From Aggregatilinea lenta (lineage in GTDB: Bacteria; Chloroflexota; Anaerolineae; Aggregatilineales; Aggregatilineaceae), in NCBI RefSeq assembly GCF_003569045.1, contig NZ_BFCB01000003.1:682001-746000 (forward strand): 64,000 nucleotides of DNA. The letters run 5' to 3'. The position numbers were made by a program, and so were the translations under genes. The first letter of the stretch is position 1; each line of letters begins with the position of its first letter. Shown in pieces: positions 21,020 to 59,388 of the stretch. Under the pieces are notes generated by a model that saw only the letters and a list, made by a program, of their open reading frames with translations, was not told the origin of the DNA and searched no databases.

Positions 21020-21275
21020 GTTGAGCGCGCCTGCAAACCCGCTGCTGCTGAAGGCGTACGCCGCCGTAGGGGTTGGAGCCGCCCGGCACGGTGTAAGTCT
21101 GTGACGCGCCCGCCGCCAGCAGGATCGTGTTGCTGGGCGTCATGCTGCCGGTGATGGGCGTGCCGTCACGCGTGACGGTGTATGCCTGCCCGGTGAGCAT
21201 ATCGCCTGCACCTGCGTCGTTGGTGACGGTGAAGGTCACCGTCGCGCCGCACGCGTTGGTGACGACGCTCAGGTT
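18011..21275 (-). repeat. Two tandem ~1632-bp coding super-repeats
   Basis: Six-domain blocks of type A-A-B-A-B-C are repeated head to tail: block one 19643-21275 (1633 bases) and block two 18011-19642 (1632 bases). A shortened A-B-C block of 810 bases follows (17201-18010). Boundaries are placed after the 'PCPAP' sequence that ends each C-type domain. The one-base excess of block one is the frameshift. Confidence 0.8.
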
Positions 21276-27200: not shown

Positions 27201-27647
27201 GTCCGGCGTGGCCGTTTCTGTGGCGGGCTGCGTAGGCGCGGCGGTCGGCTCGGTCGCTGCAGGCTGCGTCGGGTCGGTCGCCGGAGGCTGGGTCGGCTCA
27301 GTGGGCGGCACTTCGGTAGTTGGCTCGGTCGGTGGCGCTCCCGTGGGGGCTTCAGTTGGCGTGGACTGCGTTGCCTCAGTTGCCGGGGACTGTGTCGGCT
27401 CGGTCGGTGGCGGCTCGGTCGGGGCCGCTTCCGTCGATTGCGCGATCTGATCGGCAGACTCAGGTGCTGCGACGTCAGCGGCAGCGCCGGACGTGTCCGC
27501 ATCCGCGCCCTGACGCAATTCCGTCTTGGCGGAAGCGGTTTCGACTTCGGCGCTGCCGTAGCTGATCAGTGGAGAGAATGTATTGATGCTTAAGATAATG
27601 ACGGTGAATAGAGAGAGCAGTACGTGCTTGATCGACCGATGCGACAT
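21000..27647 (-). CDS. Giant secreted PKD/repeat protein, N-terminal fragment
   Basis: Begins with a Sec signal peptide (about residues 1-32). A Thr/Pro/Glu-rich low-complexity linker follows (about 35-220, with repeats such as 'TEPAPLGTE'). About fourteen PKD or PKD-like domains come next ('WDFGDGT', 'WEFGDGAT', 'WNFGDGS' cores), then the first eight Cys-containing repeats. In the eighth repeat the expected 'NPYAAYAFSSSGF' turns into 'NPYGGVRLQQQRV', while the other frame continues correctly as the next fragment. The DNA shows one extra base at 21061-21066. Removing it restores a single frame of 4197 codons including stop (15056-27647). The real product is therefore one ~4196-aa extracellular protein, or this locus is a recent pseudogene. 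Confidence 0.85.
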   Translation of the reverse strand: MSHRSIKHVLLSLFTVIILSINTFSPLISYGSAEVETASAKTELRQGADADTSGAAADVAAPESADQIAQSTEAAPTEPPPTEPTQSPATEATQSTPTEAPTGAPPTEPTTEVPPTEPTQPPATDPTQPAATEPTAAPTQPATETATPDATESATPADTAEATEPAPASTEEAPALPTETATEPTPLGTETPTEPAPLGTEVATEPAPLGTEEPEPLSTEEAPEMMLFGALAAGDTVSCAMHIDADAGDPRDPYTFTFSATGENIDHYDWDLGDGTLFTGDTIVHTYATDGTYDITLTCAPTDLGDDLVVTGTVMTGITVIPVASFTVDNDTGVTPLIVQTTDNSVGENLAYSWTVTGPETYSSTDVTPQFTLTTPGTYRISLTIHDEINALSSTAWHDIEVLYPPPSASFAVSPSNLGEAPFTITVTASLNPGSGPVTSWTWNFGDGSDPVSGEGPHTHTYTVKGTYWITMDYVGENGSGSEAHQVYIDEPGGVVAADFTYASNGNVAGGVEICFTNTSEGVVTHSVWDFGDGTVEEHNDTIVCHVYATTMQDDYTVVLSIEGISPDVTSQAIQSVTVIAGPVAAFSSSATTITWGDGPIDFTDESTGIVTEWLWEFGDGATSTAQNPTYEYPEAGLYTTTLTVTGPGGTSSTQQTITVNVLPITCTFTGSLSTYPGQSATYTSTITDLEGRDVTYQWLIDGVEVATSKNLTHLWDTNSDLDGYALTFNALTGDGADCTHTEAVQVHYAELGCGLSGDPSPAPNATDVFYTATVSNLQGRTPVYAWYVDEILLDGETGSTLSRSWTAEGSETIRYTVTADPEGTCSASQDVTVEWPVLTCSIGGASSPIPQLPDDPARSYTYTANVTGLAGRSATYAWTVDASSYPDTDNSITLAWAWNETGNHTVRFDVTTLSGEVASCEVAPQRTLNVNVPMLQCQTPVGDSDPVIGDIVSYQPVLSNQYGRTISNYTWELLDETGTSVLETGTGSTFDRAFTELDAGMTYVLRYQVTVEEPTQTCAPATKTITVATPGESFMCGDQGSFWASANFTPESPSGNYTYGVYIDNYTHIPLTYTWSLVPLGWTGTTNVLQSTSGITTDGLIQATFSGADMAPVGTYTLLVDVTDPSGIAQPPSCQLAHALTVGTVSVNYTYTVDANAVPVDQEICLTNTSDTSHGTIDDMIYEWDLGTDQNSLGTQVYSGQDLPCFTYDQPNGGGYAIKLTGTQNTISASRTYTFRVYGLQSIAITKSSQTVAPANMTFSASGVNITPGTYEWTFYDGATVLGTRTGQNVSYYFANPGTYRAVVTGQGPLGETSAMVEYDLIASNAIRAAFTPSQYGGVAPLTVCFTDQSIGSTINSWEWDFGDGSAHLIYGTTNKPGSICHTYTEGGQSFPVTLTVKNATLTATATNIIRTYSLLESQSSFSITPQGNGEYCFTASLPGGIDIAYWDFGDGTTIDGASATVTICHTFQVSGNYVIRMGIQQGAETGEVTRSLQVTPGEVPTPALGVTATCSATRIASFTITNSGDDMPVADEVRVTDRFGTVVYVGTLKLNHGQSTTVTVPNMSGTVTITALDNTLSGTTTTDCEYPPNISVVGSCSSDHVTFTVHNEVDPEVGPMIAPQSYAVRDASNNEVTSGSFQIARGGADVVVTVDNPYGAFTFSSSGDVGDFTVTQSCNALPTLVVTHSECSSATVSFTIENTSDNPMVEAQNYSITRNGSPADSGTFTLAAHASTTINLPGDSDPYAAYAFSSSGYAGTLGDARDCANPNLSVTHNACGAGSVIFTVTNAAGAGDMVLAQDYTVARDSSSIDSGTFMLAAGASTDITVPIGSTAEQYMTYVFSTSGLAGSATSTRDCAPALSVSSTCGATVAFTVTNNGGPMIDPQTVTVTQGGTPLALDAASIQLVAGGSATVTVTTVDLDPYVAYVFTSSGGSLDDTTYTRNCTDPAISVTFTCGATVQATISNTGGAMVAPQTVTITQGSTAMPLNNTTFQLGAGGSTTISVTGSPDPYLPYDFEASGGYLTTITRSRDCADPVIEVTSSCAYPVTFTVRNTGGRMFAAQTVSVTSGGSPVSISRTTFTLNASATTTVVVSGTHDPYAQYVFTSTGGFLSDTTLTHAPCPAPNLSVVTNACGATVTFTVTNDAGAGDMLTGQAYTVTRDGTPITGSMTPSNTILLAAGASQTYTVPGGSNPYGGVRLQQQRVCRRAQRDAQLR

Positions 27648-43454: not shown

Positions 43455-46400
43455 TTACCGGTCAGACTCCCAGTTGGCGGGCTGTGGCAGCGTCACGGTG
43501 AACGCGGTGCCGCGCCCGACCTCGCTCTCAAAAGTGATGCTACCCCGGCACAGGTTGACCGACTGCTTGACGATGGCCAGCCCCAGCCCCGTGCCCGGCG
43601 TGCCTCCTACGTTCGAGGCCCGGTGAAACAGCTCGAACAGGTGCGCCTGGTCTGCGCTGGGGATGCCGATACCCTCGTCTTCGACGCGCAGCATGATGTC
43701 GTTCGGTGTGCAGGTCATTTCCAGCGACACGCGGCTTCCGGCAGGCGAATACTTGATCGCATTCGAGAGCAAATTGCCGACGATGTGCCGCAGCAGCTTG
43801 CTGTCGGTGATGATGTGGGTGCAATTGCCCGACGCGGTGAAGTCCAGTTGGTGCTGGCTCCCGATCGTTTGCTGGAACTCGGCTACTCGCTCCTGGCAGA
43901 ACGCTCTCAGGTTGACGAGAGTCGGGCGAAACTCCAGCTTGCCGCTCTCGGACATGGTGACCGTCAGCACGTCGTCCATCAGCTCGATCATGGTATTGAT
44001 ACTGGACGTAATCCGGCTGAAGCTCTCGGCCTGCTCGGCTCCGTTCATGCGGCTGCCGTAGTGCTTCAGCAGGTCGCTCGTGGACTGGATCACGGCCAGC
44101 GGCGTGCGAAATTCGTGCGAGGCCATCGAGACGAAGCGCGACTTCAGCTCATTCAGCTCCATCTCGCGCTCCAGCGTCTGGCGGAGTTGTTCTGCAGCCT
44201 GCTTGAGCTGCGTAATGTCGCGCCCGACAGTCTGATATTCGACAAAGTTGCCCATCTCGTCGAAGAGCATGCGGGTTACCCAACTGATCCACTGGACGCC
44301 GCCACTTGGCAGCGTCATGAACATTTCGATGGACCCGATCGGCATTCCGTGGTGGATCGATGCGACATGCTGTTGAAGGCGTGTCCGTTCCGGTTCGGGC
44401 AGTTGCAAAAACCAGGAGGTTCCGATGATCTCATCGTCCGTGGTGTTAAACATGGTGCAGTACGCCCGGTTGACGAAGGTCAGAATACCGCCCGGCAGAT
44501 AGCGACACACCATGTCGATCTGGTCTTCGACTATCGCCCGGTAGCGGGCTTCGCTGCGCTGCACTTCGGTGGTGCGCTCGGCAACGCGCTGCTCCAACAG
44601 GGAGGCGTGCGAGCGGATCTCTTCGTACAACTGCGCGCGCTCGATGGCGATGGATGTCTGGTCCGCAAACGCTTGCAACCGCTGCACGTGTGTTTTGGTG
44701 AAGAAGCCCGGCGTTGCACTGTCGAGGTTGACGAAGCCAAGCACCAGCCCGTGCGACCGGATGGGAACGGCCACGTGCGACCGCACCCAGGACGTCAGGG
44801 GATCGAGAAACCAGCCGGGATAGTTCTCGGTGTAAGGGACCAGGAACGGCTTGTTGCTGACGAACATTTCTTGCAGGTTGGGCGCTTCGGCCAGCGGCAG
44901 GACGAACTCGCGCAGCAGGGCTTCCAATTCCGGTGGGTAGCCGCGCCAGTAGGCCGGGCGCGCCTGCCCCCCTTCAAGCAGCATGATGTTGGCGGCGTCA
45001 TGCGGTGCCACCCGTGCAACGTTTTCCAGAATGCTGATCATCATGGTTTCGAGATCGGGGGCGCTGCTCAATGCGGCGGCGGTGTCGCGCAGAGCCTCAG
45101 CCAGCACACGCTGCTCGCGCTCGGCACGCTGCGCGCGCACGCGCTCGGTGATGTCCTGGGCGACGACCAGGGCGGCTGCGTGCCTGCCAAAGGTCAGGGT
45201 ATGGGACGTAATTTCCACGTCGATGATCCGCCCATCCTTCAGCTTGTGACGCCACTCGCCGGATCGCTGCAGCACGGGGCGATTATCTTTGGCGTCGGCC
45301 AGCAGCCGCTCGACATCCTCCTGGGGGCGAATATCGGCCAGATGCATGCAAAGAAACTCGTCCCGTGAAAAGCCGTAGTGCGCGATCGCCGATTCGTTGA
45401 CCTCCAGAAATCGCAGCGTTTCGAGGTCGTACACCCACATCGGGTGTGGATTTGCCGCGAACAGCAGCCGGAACGTTTCCTCACTGTCGCGCAGCCGCGC
45501 CTGGACCTGCTCGCGCTCTGTGACGTCGCGTGCGATCCCTTCGATGGCAATCAGGCGACCTTGCTCGTCGTGGACCGGCACATGGCGGATCTCGACCCAG
45601 ATCAAATCGCCTGCCTTGTTCTCCAACTGGATCGCGCGAGGATCGTTGAGAATTGTCAGGTCGTGGTCGGATTCCGCTTGCGGCAGATCGAATGGGCGAA
45701 AGATCTGGGCCGTTAATTCCGGGTTGGCGTAGTAGTCGTCGGGAGCATAGCCGGTGATGGCGGCCACTGCGGGGTTGACGTAGTCGAACCCCGGTTCTGG
45801 CCCCAGGCGATAGCGGTAGATGATGTCCTGCGCGTTTTCAGCCAGCCGCCGGTAACGCGCCTCGCTCTCTCGGAGCGCTTTTTGTTCCTGCACCAACTGG
45901 CTGCGGTAGTAGGCATTTTCGAGCGCAGCCGGCAGTTGGAGCAGGTAGCGCTCGTGCTTGACCAGATAATCGGCAGCGCCCAGGCGCAGGGCTTGGGTGG
46001 CGATTTCCTCGTTGCCCTGCCCGGTGATCAGCAGCACCGGCATCTTGAATTCGCGGTTTTGCTGGAGGGCTTTCAACAGGTCCAGTGCGTTCAGATCGCC
46101 GAGCTGGTAATCAAGCAGCAGCAAATCGTAGGGGAGGGGGGTGAGCGGCGCGGGGTCGAGCAACTGGAGCACGTCGGCGGCCTGATGCGTAACGTCGAGC
46201 AAAATATGCGGTGCGTGCCGGGCCAGGTGGCGGCGGGTCAGATCCAGATCGATCGGGTCATCTTCGATGTACAGCACCCGGATCGGGTGCGACCTGCGCT
46301 GTGCCTCCGCATTGAAATTGCTCAGCGCCGTTTTGAGCGACAGCGGCAGTTGGTCCAGGTAGTTCTTGCGTTTGACCACATAGTCGTCTGCGCCTGCTTT

Positions 46401-46682
46401 CAGTGCGTTGACGGCGGCCTCTTCGTTTCCGGAGCCGGTCAGGATCACAACTGCGATGGGCAGCTCTTGCTGTCGCACTTCACGCAGCAGATCCAGGCCG
46501 CTCCCGTCTGGCAGGGCCAGATCGATTAACAGCACGTCGTACGGGTCTGGCTGAGAGAGATACGCGCGCGCGTCGGCCAGAGTCGGCGCGTTATCGAGGT
46601 AGACATTCTGCATGAGGCGGCGCAGGTTGCGCTGCGTCAGATCGACATCATGCGGGTTGTCTTCGACGTAAAGTATTTTCAT
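43455..46682 (-). CDS. Hybrid histidine kinase with two N-terminal receiver domains
   Basis: 1075-aa soluble signalling protein. Domains in order: receiver 1 (1-120, phospho-acceptor D54), receiver 2 (about 133-255, D191), PAS (about 271-390), PAS (about 400-510), GAF (about 525-690), coiled coil and PAS (about 700-835), HisKA with His about 855 in 'ASHEFRTPL', and HATPase_c (about 960-1070, 'VEDEGIGIP', 'GTGLGLAIVK'). Both receivers precede the kinase, so it can be controlled by incoming phosphate as well as by PAS/GAF ligands. No membrane segment. It starts 12 bases after a stand-alone receiver gene. Confidence 0.93.
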   Translation of the reverse strand: MKILYVEDNPHDVDLTQRNLRRLMQNVYLDNAPTLADARAYLSQPDPYDVLLIDLALPDGSGLDLLREVRQQELPIAVVILTGSGNEEAAVNALKAGADDYVVKRKNYLDQLPLSLKTALSNFNAEAQRRSHPIRVLYIEDDPIDLDLTRRHLARHAPHILLDVTHQAADVLQLLDPAPLTPLPYDLLLLDYQLGDLNALDLLKALQQNREFKMPVLLITGQGNEEIATQALRLGAADYLVKHERYLLQLPAALENAYYRSQLVQEQKALRESEARYRRLAENAQDIIYRYRLGPEPGFDYVNPAVAAITGYAPDDYYANPELTAQIFRPFDLPQAESDHDLTILNDPRAIQLENKAGDLIWVEIRHVPVHDEQGRLIAIEGIARDVTEREQVQARLRDSEETFRLLFAANPHPMWVYDLETLRFLEVNESAIAHYGFSRDEFLCMHLADIRPQEDVERLLADAKDNRPVLQRSGEWRHKLKDGRIIDVEITSHTLTFGRHAAALVVAQDITERVRAQRAEREQRVLAEALRDTAAALSSAPDLETMMISILENVARVAPHDAANIMLLEGGQARPAYWRGYPPELEALLREFVLPLAEAPNLQEMFVSNKPFLVPYTENYPGWFLDPLTSWVRSHVAVPIRSHGLVLGFVNLDSATPGFFTKTHVQRLQAFADQTSIAIERAQLYEEIRSHASLLEQRVAERTTEVQRSEARYRAIVEDQIDMVCRYLPGGILTFVNRAYCTMFNTTDDEIIGTSWFLQLPEPERTRLQQHVASIHHGMPIGSIEMFMTLPSGGVQWISWVTRMLFDEMGNFVEYQTVGRDITQLKQAAEQLRQTLEREMELNELKSRFVSMASHEFRTPLAVIQSTSDLLKHYGSRMNGAEQAESFSRITSSINTMIELMDDVLTVTMSESGKLEFRPTLVNLRAFCQERVAEFQQTIGSQHQLDFTASGNCTHIITDSKLLRHIVGNLLSNAIKYSPAGSRVSLEMTCTPNDIMLRVEDEGIGIPSADQAHLFELFHRASNVGGTPGTGLGLAIVKQSVNLCRGSITFESEVGRGTAFTVTLPQPANWESDR

Positions 46683-46694
46683 AGCGCCTCGCTG

Positions 46695-47135
46695 CTACCG
46701 GCCCATGTCGCCCATCGGGGGTCGATTAAGCACGACCCAATACAGTTCGATTTGTTCGGCCACTTCCAAAAACTTGTCAAAGTCGACCGGCTTGACGATG
46801 TACGAGTTCACCCCAAGCTGATATGCCGTCTCGATATCGCGGTCTTCGTCCGACGAGGTCAGCACGGCGACCGGGATCGTGCGGTAGACCGGATGCGCTT
46901 TCAAGCGCCGCAGCACTTCCAAACCATCGATTTTGGGCAGCTTCAAATCGAGCAGAATAATTACCGGGCGCGGCTCACCTGCTTCCCAGCGGGGAATCCA
47001 GCTGAGCGCTTCTTCGCCGTCACGCGCGACTTCCAGCGGGTTCGTCAACTTGCGACGGGTGAAGGCACGCCGGGTGAGATCGACGTCCATCGGGTTGTCT
47101 TCGACCAACAGAATAGGGGCATTTAAGTCAGTCAT
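46695..47135 (-). CDS. Stand-alone receiver protein (Rcp1-like)
   Basis: 146-aa single-domain response regulator: acidic pocket 'LLVEDNPMDVDL', phospho-acceptor Asp in 'VIILLDLKLPKIDGLEVL', 'AVLTSSD' and Lys in 'YIVKPVDFDKF'. There is no output domain. Such proteins pass phosphate between kinases, as Rcp1 does with Cph1. It overlaps the upstream kinase gene by 4 bases (ATGA) and lies 12 bases before the double-receiver kinase, consistent with a relay joining the two. Confidence 0.93.
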   Translation of the reverse strand: MTDLNAPILLVEDNPMDVDLTRRAFTRRKLTNPLEVARDGEEALSWIPRWEAGEPRPVIILLDLKLPKIDGLEVLRRLKAHPVYRTIPVAVLTSSDEDRDIETAYQLGVNSYIVKPVDFDKFLEVAEQIELYWVVLNRPPMGDMGR

Positions 47136-49423
47136 CGCTGCCTCGGTATCTCTACGTAAAACGTAGCACCCTGGCCCGGCGCGCTTTCGGCCCAGATTCG
47201 CCCACCGATGCGCTCCACGGCTTTGCGCACGATCGCCAGGCCAACTCCCGTGCCTGCATAGTCCTCGGCGCGCTGGAGGCGCTGGAAGATGTCAAAGATA
47301 CGGTCATGATATTGCATATCGAAACCAACGCCATTGTCGCGCACCCACACGATGCAGCGATCCGTCGTCGTTCGCGCGCCGATGTCGATCTGTGGGTTGT
47401 CTACACTGTGGCTGAACTTGAGTGCGTTGTCCAGCAGGTTGCGCAGCGCAATCGTCAACCCGTTCGGATCGGCAAAGACCTCCACGTCCGGCACGTTCGT
47501 CGTGATGGCGGCGTTCATTGACTGCGCTTCGTGCACGCATTCCATGACGAGCATATCGACCAGCGGGCGCAGCTCGATCTGACGCGTGTGCAGTTCGCGG
47601 CGTTCCAGACGCGAATAGGCCAGCAGGTCTTCGATGAGCTGGTTCATCTGTTCGGTGGCGTGGCGAATGTTGGTCAGAAAGATGCGTCCCTCGTCGTCCA
47701 GGCGCGCAGTGTAGTCTTCGAGCAGCAGGCGGCTGTAGCCGTCGATGCCACGCAGGGGCGCTTTCAGGTCATGCGACACGGAATAGGTGAACGTCTCAAG
47801 CTCGCGCGTTTTAGCCTCCAGCCGTGCGGTGCGCTCGACGACGCGCTGCTCAAGCTCCGCGTTCAGCCGGTTGATGGCCTCGGCGGCCTGCTTGTCCGCG
47901 GTGATTTCCAGGCTGAGGACGAAGATTCCCTCCGAGACAGGGTGGACACTGGTGCGGAACCATGCCGAGCTGTCATCCGCGTAGAAAAACTCGAATTCTT
48001 CCATGTGAGAAATGCGCTTTTCCATGCACATCCGCATGACGTCGAACAAGTGCGTCTCTTCGATGCCTGGATAACATTCCATCATGGTATGCCCGAGTAG
48101 ATCCTGCTTTGGCTGGCGTCCGTAACGGGCGGCAGCATCGTTGACGTAGAGGTAGCGCCAGTCAAACCCGATGATCTGACAGCTCTCCAGCATAGTTTCC
48201 AGCGCGTGCAGGTAGCGATCTTCTGTCTCGTGCGCGATTTCCTTCGCCTGCACCAGTTCTGTGATGTCCTGCAGCGTCCCGATGAGCCGGACAGGGTGGC
48301 CGTTCGCGTCAAATTCCGGGGCAGTATTGCCGATGAAGTGCCGGACCGGGCCGTGATCGGGATTGGTGCGAAAGTTGAAGGTCACGGGCTGGCTGCTTTC
48401 TATAGCGTGCCGGTTCGCCTCACTGACAGTCTCCCGATCCTTGGGATGAATTTCCGCCAGGTAATCGTCGATCGTAGGGGTTCCGTTGGAGGGGTCGAGG
48501 CCAATCAGTCGGAACGCTTCTGCGGACCATGTCAGTGTCCCGGCGACCAGATCTCTCGCCCAGCTGCCCAGTCTGGCCAGTTCGTGGGCCTGGGTCAACT
48601 GCATCTGGCTTGCACGCAGCGCCTGCTCGGTTTGTTGGCGTTCGAAGATGGTCTGTTCCAACTCGGCGGCATGGCGGCTGAGCGCTTCGTTCAGGCGGAC
48701 CTGTTCGAGAGCGATCGCCAGCTCGGTGGCGACTTCGGCGACGATGTCCCGGTGTTCCGCCGTGAAGAACGACGGCGTGAGTGTGGCCAGGGCGATCGCC
48801 CCGCTAAGCCGCTCGTTCACGAGGATCGGCACGTATAAAAATGCCCGCATGCCCTTGGCGACCATCAGCGTGCAGGTTGGGTCGTCGGGCACGGCTTCGC
48901 CCTGCGCATCGTGAATGATCTTGACCTGTCCCGACTCTATATCCTTGATCCAGCAGGGCGGGGCGGCCAGGCGCTGCATGGCGTAGGGAACATCGTCGGC
49001 GCCGGTCGCAGACAGCGCCAACCAGTCGCCGCCGGCCTGCGGATCGATCATGCCGACTGTGATCGCATCACAGTGGATCGTGTGGTACAGGTGGCGGATG
49101 GCAGTCCCGGCGACGTGCTGAATGGAGCGCGCTTCGATGATATTACGATCGAGGCTGTGCAGGTTTTCGAGCCGCTGCACGGTCCGGTTGCGCGCGGCCT
49201 GGCTTTGCTGCAGCGTGGTCATTTCGTGGCGAATAAGGACGTAGAGCAGAAGTGCTGTGAGCGAGACGAATCCCCAACCCTTGTACGTCTGTGCTGCCGA
49301 AAGCCAGTCCGTGGACGATGATATCGCTTCGAGAATCCGGTCGGACACGACGATCCACAACCCTGCGATCAGGGCATATCCGAACGCGATGCGTAAGGCG
49401 AATGACGGACCCGTGAGTTTCAT
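47132..49423 (-). CDS. Membrane sensor histidine kinase with GAF and PAS domains
   Basis: 763 aa from the ATG at 49423, which puts the first membrane segment at the N-terminus; the frame is open to 49594 but adds no recognisable protein. Two membrane segments (about 6-30 and 48-72), GAF (about 100-245), PAS (about 270-385), PAS (about 395-510), HisKA with 'VSHDLKAPLRGIDGYSRLL' (about 545-610) and HATPase_c (about 650-760, 'VRDNGVGFD', 'GTGVGLAIVRK'). The 'SHDLKAPL' H-box is the type found with bacteriophytochromes and Cph1, but the GAF shows no obvious chromophore Cys and there is no PHY domain. First gene of the signalling operon. Confidence 0.9.
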   Translation of the reverse strand: MKLTGPSFALRIAFGYALIAGLWIVVSDRILEAISSSTDWLSAAQTYKGWGFVSLTALLLYVLIRHEMTTLQQSQAARNRTVQRLENLHSLDRNIIEARSIQHVAGTAIRHLYHTIHCDAITVGMIDPQAGGDWLALSATGADDVPYAMQRLAAPPCWIKDIESGQVKIIHDAQGEAVPDDPTCTLMVAKGMRAFLYVPILVNERLSGAIALATLTPSFFTAEHRDIVAEVATELAIALEQVRLNEALSRHAAELEQTIFERQQTEQALRASQMQLTQAHELARLGSWARDLVAGTLTWSAEAFRLIGLDPSNGTPTIDDYLAEIHPKDRETVSEANRHAIESSQPVTFNFRTNPDHGPVRHFIGNTAPEFDANGHPVRLIGTLQDITELVQAKEIAHETEDRYLHALETMLESCQIIGFDWRYLYVNDAAARYGRQPKQDLLGHTMMECYPGIEETHLFDVMRMCMEKRISHMEEFEFFYADDSSAWFRTSVHPVSEGIFVLSLEITADKQAAEAINRLNAELEQRVVERTARLEAKTRELETFTYSVSHDLKAPLRGIDGYSRLLLEDYTARLDDEGRIFLTNIRHATEQMNQLIEDLLAYSRLERRELHTRQIELRPLVDMLVMECVHEAQSMNAAITTNVPDVEVFADPNGLTIALRNLLDNALKFSHSVDNPQIDIGARTTTDRCIVWVRDNGVGFDMQYHDRIFDIFQRLQRAEDYAGTGVGLAIVRKAVERIGGRIWAESAPGQGATFYVEIPRQR

Positions 49424-49643
49424 GGTTCGTTCATACCATCCTTGAACCGGTATATTCCGCTTCAACACCCCCGTCGCGTTGGATAATCCGATCCCGCTTA
49501 CTGCCTGGGCCATAGTCGGTGGCCCAATTCTAGTTACTTGTGACGGTAAACATACCACACAACGATTTTCTGCGCTTCTTGGCCGCTGTTTCACGCGGGG
49601 CCTTTCTCAGAAACCATGTGCAAAGTTACGTCGATTCGCGTTT

Positions 49644-51552: not shown

Positions 51553-52596
51553 CTACAGATCCCGCTCGATCATATACAGAACGATATCCTCGACGAAGCG
51601 CTTGTCCTCGCTGTCCGGCAGACCGCCGTACGCCAGCACGAACTCCTTCAGCGCTGCCCCGGCGAGCTGGTGCGCGCTGGCCCTCGCGTATTCCAGGCTC
51701 CCGTACTTGCCCATGAGCTTGTAGACCCATCGCACGTCGTTCTCGCTGCGGTCAAGGCGCGGCGTCGCCAGGAAGCGCTGCAAGCGCGTGTGCTCGCGTG
51801 GGGTGGCATGGTTCAGCGTGTGGATCAACATCAGCGTGCGCTTGCCTTCCCAGATGTCGCCGCCGATCTCCTTGCCGTACTTCACCTCGTCGCCTGCCAG
51901 ATTCAGCAGGTCGTCCTGGATCTGGAACGCCGCCCCCATGAAGTAGCCGAAGCGGTTGAACCGGTCAGGATCGGCGGCCCCGCCGGAGCCGACTACGGCC
52001 CCGATCCGGCATGGGTGGATGCAGGTGTACCAGCACGTTTTTTTGAGCGTCATGCGCAGGTAGTCGCCGTCGCTCAAGTCGCACACGTTGTCGCGCACCC
52101 AGCCCAGTTCGAGCGCCTGGCCCTCGACCGACTCGCTGACCATGTGCTCGATTTCGGCAAACACACGCCAGGTAAGGGTCGGGCCCAGGCGCTGGAGGTT
52201 ATCCATCAGCGGGCGGATCGAAAGCACGTTCATCGCGTCGCCCACGTTGACCGCCACCGGCAGCCCGAACTCGGAGACAAGCGTCGGGCTGCCCCGCCTG
52301 TTCAGGCTGCCGTCTTCCACGTCGTCGTGGACCAGGAACGCGTTGTGGAACAGCTCAATCGCCACCGCCGACATCAGCACGCTGCTGGCGCTGCCGCCAA
52401 AAGCCCGGCACGTGGCGATGCACAGCGCCGGGCGCAGCCCTTTACCCGATCGCTGCGGGTAGAGCGGGATCAGATCGTACAGGTAGCGGCGCGGCTCCTT
52501 GTCGGGCAGCAGGGCCAGCAGGCGCTCCATCGTCATCGTCTTGTAGCGATCCAGCATCTCGACCACAAACGCCGAGCGCTCGGTGGCGGTTGTCAT
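51553..52596 (-). CDS. Polyprenyl diphosphate synthase
   Basis: 347-aa all-helical prenyltransferase of the isoprenyl diphosphate synthase family. The first Asp-rich motif is D91-D92-x-x-D95 in 'FLVHDDVEDGSLNRRG'. The second is D228-D229-L-L-N232 in 'FQIQDDLLNLAGD', where the third acidic residue is Asn. The family condenses isopentenyl diphosphate onto an allylic primer; chain length cannot be read safely. It is the last gene of a six-gene operon (17 bases after the previous gene) with five unrecognised proteins, an unusual setting for this enzyme. Confidence 0.9.
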   Translation of the reverse strand: MTTATERSAFVVEMLDRYKTMTMERLLALLPDKEPRRYLYDLIPLYPQRSGKGLRPALCIATCRAFGGSASSVLMSAVAIELFHNAFLVHDDVEDGSLNRRGSPTLVSEFGLPVAVNVGDAMNVLSIRPLMDNLQRLGPTLTWRVFAEIEHMVSESVEGQALELGWVRDNVCDLSDGDYLRMTLKKTCWYTCIHPCRIGAVVGSGGAADPDRFNRFGYFMGAAFQIQDDLLNLAGDEVKYGKEIGGDIWEGKRTLMLIHTLNHATPREHTRLQRFLATPRLDRSENDVRWVYKLMGKYGSLEYARASAHQLAGAALKEFVLAYGGLPDSEDKRFVEDIVLYMIERDL

Positions 52597-52613
52597 GCGC
52601 GCGCCATTCCCCT

Positions 52614-53420
52614 TTACGCGATCTGGAGCGTCAGCACGGCGCGTAACTGGTCCATGCGGCTCGCTTGCAGCAGCCCGGAATACGTGCCCGGCGCGGTGCC
52701 CTCCGGCACCTGCACGATCACGGTGACGGTGGTGGCCTGTTTCGGCTCGATGACCAACCGCTCCGGCGAAAACGAGATCTGCTGCGCGGCGATGCGCGCG
52801 CCGTCCGTATTCATCAGATCCGAGCTGTAAAACGAGAACGCCTCGATCGGCTTGTCGCCTTCGTTTTCGAGCCGCATCGGGATCTCGACCGTTTCCCCCG
52901 GCGTGGCGATGGTCGGCACGGCCAGCGACGGGATCGCGCTGGCAGATGGTCTGCCGCCGCTGCCGGAGCTGGTGCGCGGCTGCCCCAGCCCGATCTTGAC
53001 CGCGCGCTCGCTGAGGTCGGTCATCGTGTTGGTCGCCACGTTTACGAGGTCGAGCAGGATGTCCACCACGTCGTGCGCGTCTTTGCGGAAGCGCTGGATC
53101 ACCGCTTGCGAATCCGCGCTGCGCAGCCGCTCCACGTCTACCACGCGTTGCTCGATATTCTGCGTCGCGTTGATCCCGGCGGCGATCTCCTCCTCCAGAA
53201 TCGAGGCCGCGCGGTTGACGATCTGCGAGGTTGCGCCCGCCATGCCCGCCAGCAGGTCGAGCTGGCCCGACAGCCGCGACGATCCGCCGTCGCCATTGGT
53301 GGATGGCGCAGGAGCGGCAGCGATCGCGGGATCGATGGGCGCTACGGCTTTGGGCGACGCGCGCCGCGAGCGCGTGGACTTTGGCGCGGAACGGGGCTTC
53401 TTGGTCGGTTGTTCGCTCAT
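52614..53420 (-). CDS. Unknown protein: basic tail, amphipathic helices, Ig-like domain
   Basis: 268-aa protein I do not recognise. Residues 1-45 are Lys/Arg/Ser/Pro/Ala-rich and disordered. Residues 50-145 are predicted long amphipathic helices ('IVNRAASILEEEIAAGINAT', 'FRKDAHDVVDILLDLVNVAT'), reminiscent of phasins that coat polymer granules. Residues 165-268 look like an Ig-type domain of the 'TPGETVEIPMRLENEGDKPI' kind found in secreted and structural proteins. There is no signal peptide or membrane segment. GGAGGAG precedes the ATG. Its place between the small LCEPIC-motif protein and the polyprenyl synthase implies a shared role. Confidence 0.8.
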   Translation of the reverse strand: MSEQPTKKPRSAPKSTRSRRASPKAVAPIDPAIAAAPAPSTNGDGGSSRLSGQLDLLAGMAGATSQIVNRAASILEEEIAAGINATQNIEQRVVDVERLRSADSQAVIQRFRKDAHDVVDILLDLVNVATNTMTDLSERAVKIGLGQPRTSSGSGGRPSASAIPSLAVPTIATPGETVEIPMRLENEGDKPIEAFSFYSSDLMNTDGARIAAQQISFSPERLVIEPKQATTVTVIVQVPEGTAPGTYSGLLQASRMDQLRAVLTLQIA

Positions 53421-53423
53421 AGC

Positions 53424-53759
53424 TTAAAGCTCCTCCCGGCAGCCGGACAGGCGCGTCCGGCCCCGGATCGTGATTGAGATAACCGGACGGTCGAAAATGG
53501 TGATCCCGATGGTGTAGTTGCTCTCAGCGCAGATTGGCTCGCACAGGCTGATGCACAGCGGGATGGCGTCCGTCGCGCGCATCGCCATGTTCATGGCGAC
53601 TTGCAGCGGGCGCTCCGGCAGCGACGCGACGATCACGTGCGCGGGGGTGTCTTCGAACCCCACCGTGACCGGCAGGGGATCGCCGTCCGCGAACTCGTGC
53701 GCGAGCCGGGCTGGCTCCGGCGGCCAGCTCAGGATGTGGATGTTTTGCTCGTCGGCCAT
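53424..53759 (-). CDS. Unknown small protein with LCEPIC motif
   Basis: 111-aa protein, mostly beta by appearance. It is a clear paralogue of residues 1-106 of the protein encoded at 58108-58872: both start MAD, and share 'DTPAHV', 'IPLCI-LCEPICA-S-YTIGI-(V/I)FD-P' and 'RG-TRL--CR'. The conserved Cys pair in 'LCEPIC' could bind metal or form a disulfide. It lacks the C-terminal domain of its larger paralogue. There is no signal peptide. It is 3 bases from the next gene and 4 bases from the previous one, so tightly coupled. Confidence 0.85.
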   Translation of the reverse strand: MADEQNIHILSWPPEPARLAHEFADGDPLPVTVGFEDTPAHVIVASLPERPLQVAMNMAMRATDAIPLCISLCEPICAESNYTIGITIFDRPVISITIRGRTRLSGCREEL

Positions 53760-53763
53760 GTGT

Positions 53764-56700
53764 CTACTCCTTGCCCGGCTTATCTTGCGGCTTCCGGGTG
53801 ATCTGCGCGATGCACAACTCGATCAACAGCCCTTCGTTGCCCCCACCGTAAATCACCACGCGGACGATGCCCTCCGCCTCCACGGTGATCGTGACGAGTC
53901 CCTGCTGGTTGGGCGGTGAGGCAGCCTGACCGACCATGTTGCCGTCCGCATCGTAGGCGTCCAGCACGATCGGCTTGGACGTACCGCTCATCACGCGGGC
54001 GATGACGTGGTTGGCCTCGAACGGCAGCGCGATGTCCACGCCGTCGTCGGGGAACTGGAGCTTGCCCTGGTTGGCGGGTTCGCCCCAGAAGGCGATCATC
54101 AGCGGCAGGCCGCTGCGCGACTTGAACTTGAACCCGTTCTTTTCGTAGTCGTCGGGCAGTCGGGTAGGCTTGCGCTCGTCGGCCCAACCAACGCACGCGC
54201 GCTGATCCTTCGGCGGCGGTTCTTCCTCCGGCGCGCACTCGTGGATCGGGCACGGGTAGGGGATGAAGTCCACGTCGTCGAAGTACGCGATGGCGCGTTC
54301 TTCGCTGGACTGCGAGTCGAGGAACACGGTGATGCGCCGCTTGGTCGCGGTGACGCGTACCAGCAGCATGGCCCAGTCGCGCTGTTCCGCGCCCTGCGAC
54401 CAGACCACGTCCGGCGAATCGGGGTTGGTCCCGCCCGCCGGATCGACGCCCAGGCGGCAGATCCCGCCGCCGCGCTCGTCGAGGTGATACCACGCGATGA
54501 GCTGGTAGTCCCAACCAACATTCGCGCCGATCGACTGCATCAGCCCGGCGCGGAAGACGCGGCTGTCGCCGATCTGCTGCGAGCGCTGCCCGCCGTGCAC
54601 GATGATCTCCTCGCCCTGGAAGAGCTGGCCCGCGCTGCCGGGCGTGAAGGCGCTGGTACTCGTGCCGGGCACATTCCCGTAGGGTTCCCAGTCGTTGGCG
54701 ACCTCGCCGACGAGGCGCTGGCGGAAGCCGCCTTCGAAGTCGGTGTTCTTCAGGCGCACCACGCGCACGATCACCTCGTCTGCGCCCACGCCGCCGTCGT
54801 CGTCGGTGACGATGCAGCGCGCGACGTAGGTGCCGCAGTGCTGGTAGATGTGCGCGGCAGCGGCCACGCCGATGCCCTGCGGCGGCTCGTGCGTTTCGTG
54901 CACGACGGCGGGCGTCAGCGGCGTGCAGTCGCCAAAGTCCCAGGCCGCCGTATGCGTATCGCACCAGCCGGGATCGGTGAAGCACGCTTCCAGGCTGATC
55001 GGGAAGCCGGGGTAGGCGAACTTATCCACGCCCGCGTCCACGGTCGGCGGGACGTTGCGTACGGTCATCACGCGCTGGTCGATGCCCACGCCGCCATCGT
55101 CGTCCATCACCTTGACCGTGACGGTATAGTCGCCGTTGTCACAGTAGGCGTGCTTGGCGGTGGCGGTGCCCTTCGCTTCGGGCTTGTTGTTCGTCTCGCT
55201 GACTGCGCCGTCCACGGGCAGTGTATCGTCGCCGAAGTCGAAGACGGCGGTGTGTGTGTCCGGCCATTCCTGGTCGGTGAAGGTCGCGACGTACTCGACC
55301 TCCTGCCCCTCGTCGATGGTCATGTCCGGCCCGGCGTCCACCTTCGGCGGCACGTTGCGGGCGTGCACCCGCGCGAACTGCCGCGTGATCACGCCGCCTG
55401 GCTGCGTGACGGTCGTCTTCAGCTTGGCGATGTAGATCCCGTCGTCCGCGTAGGTATGCGAGGCCACGCGTCCGGTCGCGGTCGCACCGTCGCCGAAGTC
55501 CCATTCGTACTGGGTGTCTACGGTGACCGGTCCGCCGGTGAACGTGACCGGCGCGCCCGCGTTGACGATGTACGGCCCGTTGCTCTCCGCGAACGCGATC
55601 ACCGTGTCGGCGAAGATGGCCTTCACCGCGTAAGCGTCGGGGAACATGATGCTCTGCGGGTCGATCACTACCGGGTTATCGAACCTGGCCGTCACGTCGC
55701 CGATGCCTTCCAGCGTCTGCGGCCACGCGCCGATGCCCTTCACCTGGCCGGTGATCTCGTCGCGCACGATCACGCCGCCGATGTTTTCGGCCACGCTTTC
55801 GGCCACGGCCACCAGCACGATGGCGATGATCCCGCCGACCAGCCCCAGCGTGATGAAGCCGATCAGGAAGCTCAGAATCCAGGCCAGCAGCGACAGATCC
55901 ACATCGGGATCCCCGATCACGAACGGCTCGATCTGCTGCGTGCCGTCGGCGTTATCGACCCACTGCAGGCCGATATTAGCGCTGAAGCTGGCGTCCACGT
56001 CCACGCACGCGATCGCGTCCACGACGGTCACGTCGCCCGAAATGTGGATGTGGCCCGTCTCCAGCGAGACGTCGATGCGGTGCACGATCGCGTCGTGCCC
56101 ATTGACGTTGTGCTCGGTGTGCGGCAGGCCGCCGAAGCCGCCCTCGTCCTCCGGCTTGTTGATCTGGTCGCGGATCATCTGGATCACGACGTCGCCGTCG
56201 ATGGCGATGGCGCACGTCTGACCGGCGGGGATGAAGTTCACGATCACGCTCGTGTCGCCGCCGGGGTTGTTCAGGCAGAACGCGATGGCGTCCGCCAGAG
56301 CCAGCGGCCTGACGTCGGTCACGGTGACGTCGCTGCCGGGCGGCGGCGTGGGCGTCCACAGGCTGATGTCGCCGCGTCCGACGATAGCCGCGTGCGCCTG
56401 ATCGGCGATGAACGTCTCGATCTGGGCGACGGTCGGCACGCTGAACGTCTGGTCGCCGATGGCGGTTACGATGGCCTGGGCGCGCGTTTGCATCTCCGTT
56501 TTGAGCAGGGCTTCCAGGTCGATGCCGAACAGGCTTGCTCCGGCCTTGTTGGCGGTGTAGTTGGTGCCTTCTGTTCCCGCCGCCGGAGCGACGTCTTCGA
56601 TAGCGATCGCAGCCGAGGCGAAGCGCGCCGTCAGAGAGCCGGGTGCGGCGTCCAACTGCACCGTAAGCGCGATGCGCCCGGTGATGCCCATCGGGGAGAG

Positions 56701-57366
56701 CGGCTGCGGCCCGCTTGCAGAGGACATGTTGCTCAGGCGCAGGTGGAAGGGCATGCGCACCTTGACGTGCGTCGCGTCCGGCTGCGACACCTCGATGCGC
56801 AGGGCGGCGTTGCTGCTGTCGTCGAAGATTTCCACGAACGCGTCAGCGGTCCAGATGCCGAAGGAGATACCGTTCTGCGTTGTCGTGTGCGGGATCGTGC
56901 TGTCCTCGTAGCGGGCGTGCACGTATTCCGCGATCAGGCTCAGCGTCAGCGGCGGCACGGGGTCGCCGCTGGTCAGCGTGGCGCTGACGCTGCTGCGCGG
57001 GATGCCGTTCAGCAGCGCGGCTACCTGGATCGTGCCCGGCAGCACGCCGATGGGCACGGACGCGGCAATGTCCGCCGTCATGGCGAACATACTCGCGCTG
57101 GGGATGGGCGGGTTGGCCAGCTCGACCTGGATTTCCGACGGCAGCGTGATGCGCACGCCGTTGGCGGGGACGTCCATCGTCAGGCTGAGCGTGTCGCGCG
57201 GGATGTTGACCACACCGTCCGCGAGGGCGTAAGGGCCGAACAGCGTCCCGGCAGGGATCTGCACGCTGTGCGGGATGATGTCGTTGTCCCACGAGCTTTT
57301 CAAAATGTCGTTGAGGACGTCGACCGTCAGTTCACCGACGACTTCAAAACCACCGAGGTTTGGCAT
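53764..57366 (-). CDS. Large modular PKD protein without signal peptide
   Basis: 1200 aa from the ATG at 57366 (the extension to 57498 overlaps the upstream gene). Regions: 1-480, beta-rich sequence I do not recognise, beginning 'MPNLGGFEVVGELTVDVLND'; 493-522, a strongly hydrophobic membrane-like segment; about 598-670, 671-770 and 771-870, three PKD domains ('WDFGDGATATG', 'FDFGDDTLPVD', 'WDFGDCTPLTP'); 871-1040, a jelly-roll or carbohydrate-binding-like domain ('NTDFEGGF', 'YFDDVDFIPYP'); 1055-1190, a domain shared with the C-terminal half of the protein at 58108-58872 ('FWGEPANQGKL', 'GGGNEGLLIELC'). PKD proteins are usually exported, but no signal is present here. Structural role suspected; function unknown. 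Confidence 0.85.
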   Translation of the reverse strand: MPNLGGFEVVGELTVDVLNDILKSSWDNDIIPHSVQIPAGTLFGPYALADGVVNIPRDTLSLTMDVPANGVRITLPSEIQVELANPPIPSASMFAMTADIAASVPIGVLPGTIQVAALLNGIPRSSVSATLTSGDPVPPLTLSLIAEYVHARYEDSTIPHTTTQNGISFGIWTADAFVEIFDDSSNAALRIEVSQPDATHVKVRMPFHLRLSNMSSASGPQPLSPMGITGRIALTVQLDAAPGSLTARFASAAIAIEDVAPAAGTEGTNYTANKAGASLFGIDLEALLKTEMQTRAQAIVTAIGDQTFSVPTVAQIETFIADQAHAAIVGRGDISLWTPTPPPGSDVTVTDVRPLALADAIAFCLNNPGGDTSVIVNFIPAGQTCAIAIDGDVVIQMIRDQINKPEDEGGFGGLPHTEHNVNGHDAIVHRIDVSLETGHIHISGDVTVVDAIACVDVDASFSANIGLQWVDNADGTQQIEPFVIGDPDVDLSLLAWILSFLIGFITLGLVGGIIAIVLVAVAESVAENIGGVIVRDEITGQVKGIGAWPQTLEGIGDVTARFDNPVVIDPQSIMFPDAYAVKAIFADTVIAFAESNGPYIVNAGAPVTFTGGPVTVDTQYEWDFGDGATATGRVASHTYADDGIYIAKLKTTVTQPGGVITRQFARVHARNVPPKVDAGPDMTIDEGQEVEYVATFTDQEWPDTHTAVFDFGDDTLPVDGAVSETNNKPEAKGTATAKHAYCDNGDYTVTVKVMDDDGGVGIDQRVMTVRNVPPTVDAGVDKFAYPGFPISLEACFTDPGWCDTHTAAWDFGDCTPLTPAVVHETHEPPQGIGVAAAAHIYQHCGTYVARCIVTDDDGGVGADEVIVRVVRLKNTDFEGGFRQRLVGEVANDWEPYGNVPGTSTSAFTPGSAGQLFQGEEIIVHGGQRSQQIGDSRVFRAGLMQSIGANVGWDYQLIAWYHLDERGGGICRLGVDPAGGTNPDSPDVVWSQGAEQRDWAMLLVRVTATKRRITVFLDSQSSEERAIAYFDDVDFIPYPCPIHECAPEEEPPPKDQRACVGWADERKPTRLPDDYEKNGFKFKSRSGLPLMIAFWGEPANQGKLQFPDDGVDIALPFEANHVIARVMSGTSKPIVLDAYDADGNMVGQAASPPNQQGLVTITVEAEGIVRVVIYGGGNEGLLIELCIAQITRKPQDKPGKE

Positions 57367-57376
57367 GGCGCACCCC

Positions 57377-58054
57377 CTATTGCGGCTGCTGCGAGCTGGG
57401 CTTATAGCGCAGCTTGAGGGACGTGATCGGCAGCTTGACATCACCGCGCGCGATGCGGTCGTACACACGGCGCGGCGCGAGGCGCGCGGCGCTGGCATCC
57501 AACTGACGATATTCCAGCAGTGGCGGCATGATCGGATGCGCGTCGCGCAGCGGTTCGAGCGGGTCCGGGACCGGCTCGTGCCCGATGACGCGCGCCTCCA
57601 GCGGCGCGGCCAGCGGCAGCACCTCCTTCAGCTCGGACGGGCTGATCGGCTCCGGTTTGGGGGGCGTCTTCGGTTTTCTGCCCTTGCGCGCCGGTTCTTT
57701 TTGCTCCTGCGCCGGAGACTGAATCGGCGGGCGGGGAAGCTCTAGTTTGACGAACAAAACGCGCGCTAATTCCTGGTCTGAATCAAGGTCAAAACGTTCG
57801 TCGGCAATTTTCCACACCTGCGCTTCTAGCTTGACCAGCCGCTCGAACGTCTCGGCGGAGGGGAAGCGCACGCGCCGCGCGGCGAAGTGCATCATGTTGG
57901 CGTTGAGCGTATAGCCCAGCTCCTGGGCGAGGTACAGCGGATTGGCAGCAAACCGCAGCGCCAGCGCCGGGTCGGCGTTGACGGCATCTATGATCTGCGG
58001 GACGGCCTCCATCAGGTCTTCCATCGAATTGATGGCTTGACGTTTGCGCGCCAT
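57377..58054 (-). CDS. Unknown protein with leader-like N-terminal helix motif
   Basis: 225-aa protein I do not recognise. Residues 15-50 contain 'DPALALRFAANPLYLAQELG', which resembles the Nif11/NHLP-style leader helix (acidic start, 'ANPL..A.ELGY'). Residues 110-140 form a Lys/Pro-rich linker ('KGRKPKTPPKPEPISPSELK'). The end (about 185-220) is basic with 'HPIMPPLLEYRQLDA'. AAGGAGG precedes the ATG. The gene ends 10 bases before the large PKD gene. Confidence 0.8.
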   Translation of the reverse strand: MARKRQAINSMEDLMEAVPQIIDAVNADPALALRFAANPLYLAQELGYTLNANMMHFAARRVRFPSAETFERLVKLEAQVWKIADERFDLDSDQELARVLFVKLELPRPPIQSPAQEQKEPARKGRKPKTPPKPEPISPSELKEVLPLAAPLEARVIGHEPVPDPLEPLRDAHPIMPPLLEYRQLDASAARLAPRRVYDRIARGDVKLPITSLKLRYKPSSQQPQ

Positions 58055-58107
58055 GTCGCCTCCTTATCGGCAAACTCGTTTGACGGGATGAGGGAGACGA
58101 ACGAGCG

Positions 58108-58872
58108 CTATCCGGCGCTCAGCAGTGGCCCATGCGACGCGGGCCGGTAACACACTTCTACCAGGGTGGCTTCGTTGCTGCCGCCGCTGACGGTCAGGGA
58201 CGTGATGCCGGACTGGCTGATGGTGACTTCCTTGAAGGTGTTCGAGATCGACACGACGAACTCGGTCACCAGCGAGCCGCCGCTGAACGCCACGACCTTC
58301 AGGTCCGGGCTGGCGTAGTTGCTCAGTGTCAGCAAGATGTCCTCGACCGGCTGGCCGAAGTCGATGCGGATTCCGGGGTCGGCGAAGGCCAGCTTGGTCC
58401 GCCCGGCAGGTTCGCCGAAGGTGGCCGCACGCAGCTCACCGCCCAGCGGGCTGAACTTCAGCCCCTGCTGCTCGAACCCAGACGGGAAGGTGGTCCCGGC
58501 CTTGATGTTGTCGAAGGCGACGCACTGGCGCTCGGTCGTGGGAGTGTCGCGGCAGGCTTCGAGCCGGGTGGTGCCGCGCACATTGATGGAAGCGAAGGGA
58601 TTGTCGAAGACGTTGATCCCGATTGTGTAGTCGCTGCGGGCGCAGATCGGCTCACACAGCTTGATGCACAGCGGGATCGGCTCGCGCGCGGAGACGCGCA
58701 TGTTCATATCGACCGCCAGGGGCTGCTGCGGCTCGGTCGAGACGACCACATGCGCGGGCGTGTCGGTGAACGAGATCGAGACGGGGCAGGGGCTTTCTTC
58801 CGAAAAATGATGTTCCAGGGCCGCCGGTTTTTCGGGCCAGGCAGCAATCGTCACGTTGGTGTCGTCGGCCAT
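58108..58872 (-). CDS. Unknown two-domain protein, first gene of the polyprenyl operon
   Basis: 254 aa from the ATG at 58872, chosen because GGAAGGA precedes it and because the small paralogue at 53424-53759 also starts MAD; a TTG at 58890 is in frame. Residues 1-106 match that paralogue ('IPLCIKLCEPICARSDYTIG'). Residues 112-250 match the C-terminal domain of the 1200-aa PKD protein ('ATFGEPAGRTKLAFADPGI', 'GGSNEATLVEVC'). It therefore links both partners by shared modules. Beta-rich, no signal peptide, no catalytic motif visible. Confidence 0.85.
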   Translation of the reverse strand: MADDTNVTIAAWPEKPAALEHHFSEESPCPVSISFTDTPAHVVVSTEPQQPLAVDMNMRVSAREPIPLCIKLCEPICARSDYTIGINVFDNPFASINVRGTTRLEACRDTPTTERQCVAFDNIKAGTTFPSGFEQQGLKFSPLGGELRAATFGEPAGRTKLAFADPGIRIDFGQPVEDILLTLSNYASPDLKVVAFSGGSLVTEFVVSISNTFKEVTISQSGITSLTVSGGSNEATLVEVCYRPASHGPLLSAG

Positions 58873-59340: not shown

Positions 59341-59388
59341 CCTCACCCCGCTCTCCAATCCGATTGGAGAGCGGGGTAGGGATGAGGT
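59341..59388. repeat. Dispersed hairpin repeat, family 2
   Basis: Fifteen-bp perfect stem (59346-59360 with 59362-59376) separated by one base, flanked by CCTCA and GATGAGGT. It is the best-formed member of the family in this window. It lies between the helicase stop and its terminator. Confidence 0.65.

Follow-up and report, generated by a model that had tools for sequence, protein, structure and literature searches.

The 64,000-nucleotide stretch of the Aggregatilinea lenta genome analysed here (the window; contig NZ_BFCB01000003.1, positions 682,001 to 746,000) carries a minus-strand operon of six genes, P1 to P6, in which a prenyl diphosphate synthase, P6, is encoded together with five proteins that a preliminary description of the sequence had regarded as unrecognised. 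This raises the question of what a synthase of isoprenoid chains has to do with such partners. We find that the gene set is conserved in distant bacteria, that a geranylgeranyl-reductase-family protein (GGR) often belongs to it, and that the largest protein, P3, is predicted to begin with a lipid-binding fold. We lean, if only slightly, towards a dedicated, sporadically distributed isoprenoid-lipid system, in which the product of P6 and GGR would be held by P3 within a protein assembly.

A six-gene operon and a convergent reductase

All six minus-strand open reading frames were confirmed, running from 58872 down to 51553 with intergenic spacings of 53, 10, 4, 3 and 17 bases, so that the operon proposed earlier was reproduced in both coordinates and gaps. 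Each of the six ATG codons is preceded by a purine-rich stretch resembling a ribosome-binding site, as judged by eye. The synthase is indeed the last gene of the operon, but the set does not end there, as a convergent gene for GGR accompanies it in 8 of the 11 genomes in which we located the system. The genes are as follows.

58108..58872, minus strand: P1, LCEPIC domain and a C-terminal domain common to the P3 C-terminus
57377..58054, minus strand: P2, 225 aa, DNA polymerase I thumb-like
53764..57366, minus strand: P3, 1200 aa, predicted tandem TULIP-like module, hydrophobic helix, three PKD domains, MAM-like domain (sub-threshold) and a C-terminal domain shared with P1
53424..53759, minus strand: P4, single LCEPIC domain, 111 aa
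52614..53420, minus strand: P5, low-complexity N-terminus, amphipathic helical region and C-terminal Ig-like domain
51553..52596, minus strand: P6, prenyl diphosphate synthase, 347 aa
49857..51392, plus strand: GGR, FAD-dependent geranylgeranyl-reductase-family protein, convergent with P6

Conservation of the gene set

Genome contigs of 84,980 species were scanned for the LCEPIC motif, and 28 pattern matches yielded ten confirmed loci which, with the window's own, make up the 11 genomes compared here. The search patterns were strict, and the number of loci is therefore a lower bound; loci from metagenome-assembled genomes (MAGs) may be truncated or mis-binned. The ten further loci are listed below.

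L013: Burkholderiales MAG
L014, L015, L017 and L018: four Massilia species
L016: deltaproteobacterial MAG
L019 and L021: two Bacteroidetes MAGs
L020: Gemmatimonadetes MAG
L022: Chlorobiaceae MAG (Chlorobi)

The preliminary description had proposed looking for at least four of the six genes side by side in other genera. The Burkholderiales locus has all six in the order of the window, P1-P2-P3-P4-P5-P6, followed by a convergent GGR gene, with identities to the window proteins (tblastn) of 64% for P3, 73% for P6 and 57% for GGR, and each of the two Bacteroidetes loci carries a single run of five, P2-P3-P1-P5-P6. The four Massilia loci read IspH-LCEPIC-P5-P6 with a convergent GGR gene, with no P3 seen at distances of up to about 10 kb. 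In the deltaproteobacterial MAG, IspH-P2-P3-LCEPIC lies close to a contig end, and another contig of this genome (L037) starts with P5-P6 and a convergent GGR gene. Similarly, two LCEPIC genes lie close to a contig end in the Gemmatimonadetes MAG, of which another contig (L036) ends with P5-P6 and a convergent GGR gene. In the Chlorobiaceae MAG, a P5-type helix is fused to the LCEPIC motif without the Ig-like part, and P6 follows.

P5, or its helix, and P6 thus adjoin an LCEPIC gene on one contig in nine of the 11 genomes (once as a fusion), and the remaining two have P5-P6 at one end of a different contig. P2 and P3 were found in five of the 11 loci, and IspH also in five. We regard the existence of a conserved system as virtually certain. 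The helix-LCEPIC fusion (L022:9716-10186) is the smallest version of the system seen, and an amidohydrolase gene (PF04909; L022:8078-9514) lies immediately upstream of the Chlorobiaceae locus.

Isoprenoid enzymes encoded by the set

P6 belongs to the polyprenyl synthetase family (PF00348, E 6.6e-55 in Pfam), and its closest solved structure by sequence is the geranylgeranyl diphosphate synthase of Thermus (1wmw, E 1e-56). The two Asp-rich motifs, DDVED (residues 91-95) and DDLLN (residues 228-232), are kept as DD(V/I)ED and QDD(L/V/I)LN in all 11 orthologues, and P6 therefore looks catalytically intact. In a joint alignment, orthologues from different lineages share 58-71% identity. All 11 have Ala at position -5 and Phe at position -4 of the first Asp-rich motif; the rule which we take to connect these residues with chain length gives no clear answer for P6. 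A tree of P6 with two paralogues from the window genome was discarded, as the L002 row was apparently in the wrong frame and both paralogue rows were at the branch-length limit.

GGR passes the catalytic-domain profile PF22578 (GGR_cat) with 33.4 bits against a cut-off of 27, and its best-scoring family is the broader FAD_binding_3. Counting the window's gene, close orthologues are present in eight of the 11 genomes, the other seven being 54-58% identical to it, and in all eight the gene is convergent with P6. The four Massilia genomes carry two IspH genes apiece, of which one belongs to the cluster, and in the deltaproteobacterial MAG a single IspH, matched as two pieces, lies in the cluster. 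The window genome, rated 98% complete, gave no IspH match (PF02401) at E 0.001, so that its isoprenoid precursors presumably come from another route.

A predicted lipid-binding module in P3

The preliminary description had presented P3 as a 1200-aa modular PKD protein, and three stretches indeed exceed the Pfam cut-off for PKD domains (PF18911, E 8.3e-36). Three parts of the protein concern us here.

56362..57366, minus strand: P3 residues 1-335, two helix-plus-antiparallel-strand units, of which residues about 133-310 match tubular lipid-binding (TULIP) domains
55777..55896, minus strand: P3 residues 491-530, long hydrophobic helix
54757..55575, minus strand: P3 residues about 598-870, three PKD domains

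Comparison of P3 with the PDB by sequence gave PKD-type matches only (nine sequences), and a profile of residues 1-590 found nothing among PDB sequences at E up to 10. A model of the whole protein (6 sequences, mean predicted local distance difference test (pLDDT) 56.5) was dominated in fold searches by Ig-type folds, which made up most of the best 50 of 1878 matches, and the matches from the structural aligner covered residues 670-872. The N-terminus was therefore modelled alone (590 residues, 5 sequences, mean pLDDT 60.3, with residues about 140-330 around 80).

In a Foldseek search with the N-terminal model, the first seven PDB matches comprised CETP (E 1.2e-6), two chains each of OrfX3 and LBP, and two BPI entries; BPIFA1 and YceB appeared lower down. 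VIA-align placed Der p 7 at the top (Z-score 10.0, root-mean-square deviation (rmsd) 3.6, 159 aligned residues), along with juvenile-hormone-binding proteins (Z-scores 9.2 and 9.1), SPLUNC1 (8.9), OrfX3 (8.0, rmsd 25.6 over 316), YceB (7.9), BPI and CETP (7.8) and P47 (7.2); the first 29 matches were all proteins of the TULIP superfamily. A library of viral structures gave a single match under E 0.001, with a probability of 0.20. Residues 10-114 aligned with residues 137-245 (hhalign probability 84%, P 7.4e-6), an internal repeat that resembles the tandem arrangement of double-TULIP proteins, and residues 336-580 were not detectably a third repeat of the first two units. In the hydrophobic helix, the best 19-residue window, at 501, has a mean hydropathy of 2.77, in a part of the model where confidence is low.

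Taken together, these results, from a model of middling confidence, lead us to predict that P3 begins with a tandem TULIP module. TULIP domains have a hydrophobic pocket able to carry a lipid (PMC5507252). The likeness of P3 to the superfamily, which includes BPI, CETP and juvenile-hormone-binding protein as well as bacterial P47, OrfX2, OrfX3 and YceB, lies in the predicted fold of residues 133-310 and in the tandem arrangement. Unlike these proteins, P3 has no match to a sequence family of the superfamily, is fused to PKD, MAM-like and unnamed C-terminal domains, and is encoded with a prenyl synthase. In the deltaproteobacterial locus (L016:5077-8694), a stop codon splits the P3 frame after the TULIP-like module and ahead of the PKD part, which suggests that the module is a unit, or may be an assembly error.

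The window encodes a second large PKD protein about 24 kb from the operon (21000-27647; 2215 aa, five PKD stretches, PF18911 E 1.5e-60), one region of which is 32% identical to P3.

The smaller proteins P1, P4, P5 and P2

58546-58872, minus strand: P1 LCEPIC domain, 56% to P4
about 58141-58530, minus strand: P1 C-terminal domain, common to the P3 C-terminus
about 53001-53264, minus strand: P5 amphipathic helical region
about 52617-52928, minus strand: P5 C-terminal Ig-like domain

P1 and P4, described earlier as small LCEPIC-motif proteins, do share an LCEPIC domain and are 56% alike over it. Four Cys residues (C69, C73, C77 and C107 of P4) are invariant in all 13 aligned LCEPIC sequences, spaced CX3CX3C with the fourth 30 residues further on, and their conservation would be compatible with metal binding, disulfide formation or a role as acceptor. 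Searches of Pfam, NCBIfam and PHROGs up to E 1 gave no match for either P1 or P4, and an LCEPIC profile found only two designed proteins in the PDB (E 0.46 and 0.77). Among the six proteins, Pfam matches above cut-off are confined to P6 and to the PKD domains of P3.

P5 had been described as a protein with phasin-like amphipathic helices and an Ig domain. Its helical region is amphipathic in all 11 members, with hydrophobic-moment z-scores of 2.3 to 3.8 relative to composition shuffles (only the first 75 residues being used for the Chlorobiaceae fusion). Ig-like or fn3-like families match the C-terminus in up to seven of nine members, with the window protein below cut-off throughout. The likeness to phasins is confined to this amphipathicity, and no phasin family was among the 15 families matched by nine P5 members at E up to 5. 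No known structure was matched by P5 by sequence at E up to 1. P5 has amphipathic helices in common with phasins and lipid-droplet coat proteins, and differs from them by its Ig-like domain.

P2 matched DNA polymerase I (PF00476) with E 6.2e-6 and 25.8 bits, under the cut-off of 34.3, mainly through residues 66-108 aligned to profile positions 8-50 of 381. Its whole sequence matched chains of Taq polymerase with E about 1e-6, and a second collinear stretch (165-187) was insignificant alone (independent E-value 6.8). The thumb similarity recurred in all four other orthologues scanned (L013, L016, L019 and L021), the five together ranging from E 6e-6 to 9e-4. We rejected P2 as a family A DNA polymerase, since it is under the gathering score and too short for the catalytic part; it looks like a free-standing thumb-like region of DNA polymerase I without that part.

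Residues 1051-1193 of P3 are 29% identical to the C-terminal domain of P1 (E 1.4e-11). This shared domain and the helix-LCEPIC fusion of the Chlorobiaceae locus suggest, at the level of domain architecture, that P1, P3, P5 and the LCEPIC proteins touch one another.

A possible isoprenoid-lipid system and its alternatives

We propose that P6 would condense C5 units into a prenyl diphosphate of C20 or longer, that IspH carried in the cluster would raise precursor supply in some hosts, and that GGR would hydrogenate some or all double bonds of the product. The TULIP-like module of P3 would hold this hydrophobic product, and P1, P4 and P5 would together make up the protein component of a single assembly surrounding it, which could be either a soluble complex that acts as a carrier or a lipid body with a coat. 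To judge from gene content and the predicted fold, the system probably handles an isoprenoid lipid, and it is doubtful whether it takes the form of a coated body, strictly defined. We offer only tentatively the most detailed version, a cytoplasmic isoprenoid lipoprotein body or carrier in which the TULIP-PKD protein, P5 and the Cys-rich LCEPIC proteins would hold a hydrogenated isoprenoid synthesised in place by P6 and GGR, with the polymerase I thumb-derived protein as a structural part and with spread of the set between phyla by horizontal transfer. The LCEPIC proteins would possibly provide a metal site or a prenyl acceptor in such a body. A cytoplasmic location is suggested by the lack of a signal peptide recognisable by eye. 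The preliminary description had imagined an isoprenoid-containing particle, granule or membrane structure with a protein coat; the isoprenoid and lipid part of this idea gained support from the TULIP-like predicted fold, from GGR and from IspH in Massilia and the deltaproteobacterium, while the particle, granule or coated membrane itself stays conjectural.

A number of observations weigh against the proposed system. The models of P3 are weak overall, and residues about 140-330 alone reach a pLDDT of around 80. TM-scores of the Foldseek matches to double-TULIP proteins are low (0.12-0.17 by query length), and the top VIA-align Z-score of 10 is only moderately above the values of 7 to 8 that are typical of models lacking a clear match. 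As a rule, PKD and MAM-like domains are found outside the cell, which fits poorly with a cytoplasmic P3. The TULIP protein is not universal, as P2 and P3 were not in the examined stretch of six of the 11 loci, and P2 has no explained role in the proposal. The two Bacteroidetes genomes and the Chlorobi genome have no close GGR, their best-scoring matches being 31-33% identical, with short pieces of 37-44 residues reaching 41-48%. Finally, all loci were collected through the LCEPIC motif, which makes its occurrence in all 11 a consequence of the search.

One alternative is that P6 and GGR make a modified prenyl product for ordinary use, such as a partly saturated quinone tail, an archaeal-type ether lipid or a carrier lipid, while the other proteins scaffold or regulate them and no particle or carrier exists. 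Enzymes like these two serve to make saturated prenyl chains, PMC7852524 describes bacteria that have a polyprenyl synthase and a geranylgeranyl reductase for lipids of archaeal type, and Massilia keep P6 and GGR with no P3 nearby. We nevertheless think this explanation unlikely, as a scaffold would hardly seem to call for a TULIP-PKD protein of 1200 aa along with two or three small ones, the set is sporadic even within the Massilia genus (4 of 17 genomes), and we noticed neither a prenyltransferase nor a quinone gene next to the clusters, whose flanks were viewed as open reading frames without systematic annotation. The presence of OrfX3, P47 and OrfX2 among the fold neighbours of P3, together with its PKD and MAM-like domains, would also agree with a P3 that acts like the P47/OrfX TULIP proteins, the cluster encoding an exported complex that acts on other organisms and the isoprenoid being cargo or modification; P47-superfamily proteins occur in 23 bacterial orders (PMC7020563). 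This appears quite improbable to us: eukaryotic TULIP proteins score equally or better, six sequences of the P3 alignment, scanned up to E 5, did not have the P47 family PF06597 among their matches (in a search where HMMER filters drop most weak matches), and no toxin gene was noticed in the same flanks, again without systematic annotation.

Since four Cys residues are invariant in the 13 LCEPIC sequences and recognised enzymes build and reduce prenyl chains, the LCEPIC proteins could themselves accept a prenyl group, hydrogenated or not, and become S-prenylated. We give this little credence, as neither the six proteins nor GGR could be recognised as a protein prenyltransferase, and CX3CX3C with a distant Cys also fits a metal site or disulfides. 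A chance neighbourhood, with the synthase simply beside unrelated genes, can practically be dismissed given that P5 and P6 stay together in six lineages, with GGR too in eight of 11 genomes, that P6 is so similar between these lineages (58-71%), and that P2-P3 is kept in five loci.

The proposed isoprenoid-lipid system may also be compared with known systems. P6 is of the same superfamily as the polyprenyl transferase cargo of family 2 encapsulins, and scored 187.5 bits against NF041169, short of the cut-off of 450. Searches of Pfam and NCBIfam up to E 1 with the six proteins returned no encapsulin shell-protein family. These cargos have large, mostly disordered terminal regions (PMC8346489), whereas P6 has only 347 aa, with its synthase domain at residues 39-295. 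The set resembles the archaeal-type isoprenoid lipid genes of FCB bacteria in its polyprenyl synthase and geranylgeranyl reductase, and differs in its TULIP and LCEPIC proteins, which go unmentioned in the passages of PMC7852524 consulted. The preliminary description knew of no described system of this make-up, and we found no description of the gene set among the papers listed by our literature searches, in which subscription journals were thinly covered, so that this is no proof of absence. If the proposal is correct, this would be, within that literature, the first described bacterial coupling of isoprenoid synthesis and hydrogenation to a TULIP-type lipid carrier, and the purpose of such an isoprenoid would become testable. 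Three unannotated families, LCEPIC, the P5 family and P2, would gain a common setting open to experiment, since the hosts include cultured Massilia strains with species names (M. aquatica, M. rubra, M. mucilaginosa and M. atriviolacea).

Distribution and origin of the gene set

The gene set is rare and patchy across bacteria. Among 151 relatives of the window genome, and again among 400 genomes of its phylum, LCEPIC was found once, in the window's own genome. P2 gave two matches among the 151, the window's own and a match of 46 residues (E 6.9e-4) within a 942-residue open frame of another genome, which is taken to be DNA polymerase I. A P5 profile detected four of 17 genomes of the Massilia genus, all four known already. 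An LCEPIC profile detected 3 of 296, 1 of 398 and 1 of 198 genomes in three sampled phyla, with no accepted locus beyond those known. An LCEPIC match in L033, one of the three among the 296 (E 4.3e-4, in a 1038-residue open frame), and a P5 match in L031 (E 7.6e-4) were weak, treated as chance and left uncounted.

This patchy distribution leads us to infer that the set probably moved between lineages. Base composition lends no support to a recent transfer: the GC content of the operon is 0.659, against a mean of 0.639, a standard deviation of 0.017 and a maximum of 0.672 for 7320-base windows of the 64 kb. The preliminary description had considered that the proteins might turn out to be a known phage module, of which we saw no sign: none of the six proteins had a PHROGs match with E under 0.07, P1 had no match in phage records, and no LCEPIC pattern was confirmed in viral contigs. 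P4 and P5 had no match in plasmids, and a phage or plasmid origin was rejected on these searches, made with P1 for phage records, P4 and P5 for plasmids and LCEPIC patterns for viral contigs.

Expression signals and neighbouring genes

A scan of the minus strand upstream of P1 gave no sigma-70-like promoter. One terminator-like hairpin was found between the operon and the upstream DEAD-box gene; shuffled sequences gave a mean of 6.3 such sites, and the count itself is no evidence.

59344..59378, minus strand: terminator-like hairpin of 16 pairs (consensus match only)

Elsewhere in the window, a 1987-aa open reading frame (15056-21019) contains WD40-like PD40 repeats (E 8.8e-28) and gave odd whole-protein matches to D-lyxose isomerase and to an archaeal pilin N-terminus, with no single passing stretch. 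Two large PAS/GAF sensor histidine kinases are encoded near the GGR gene (43455-49594).

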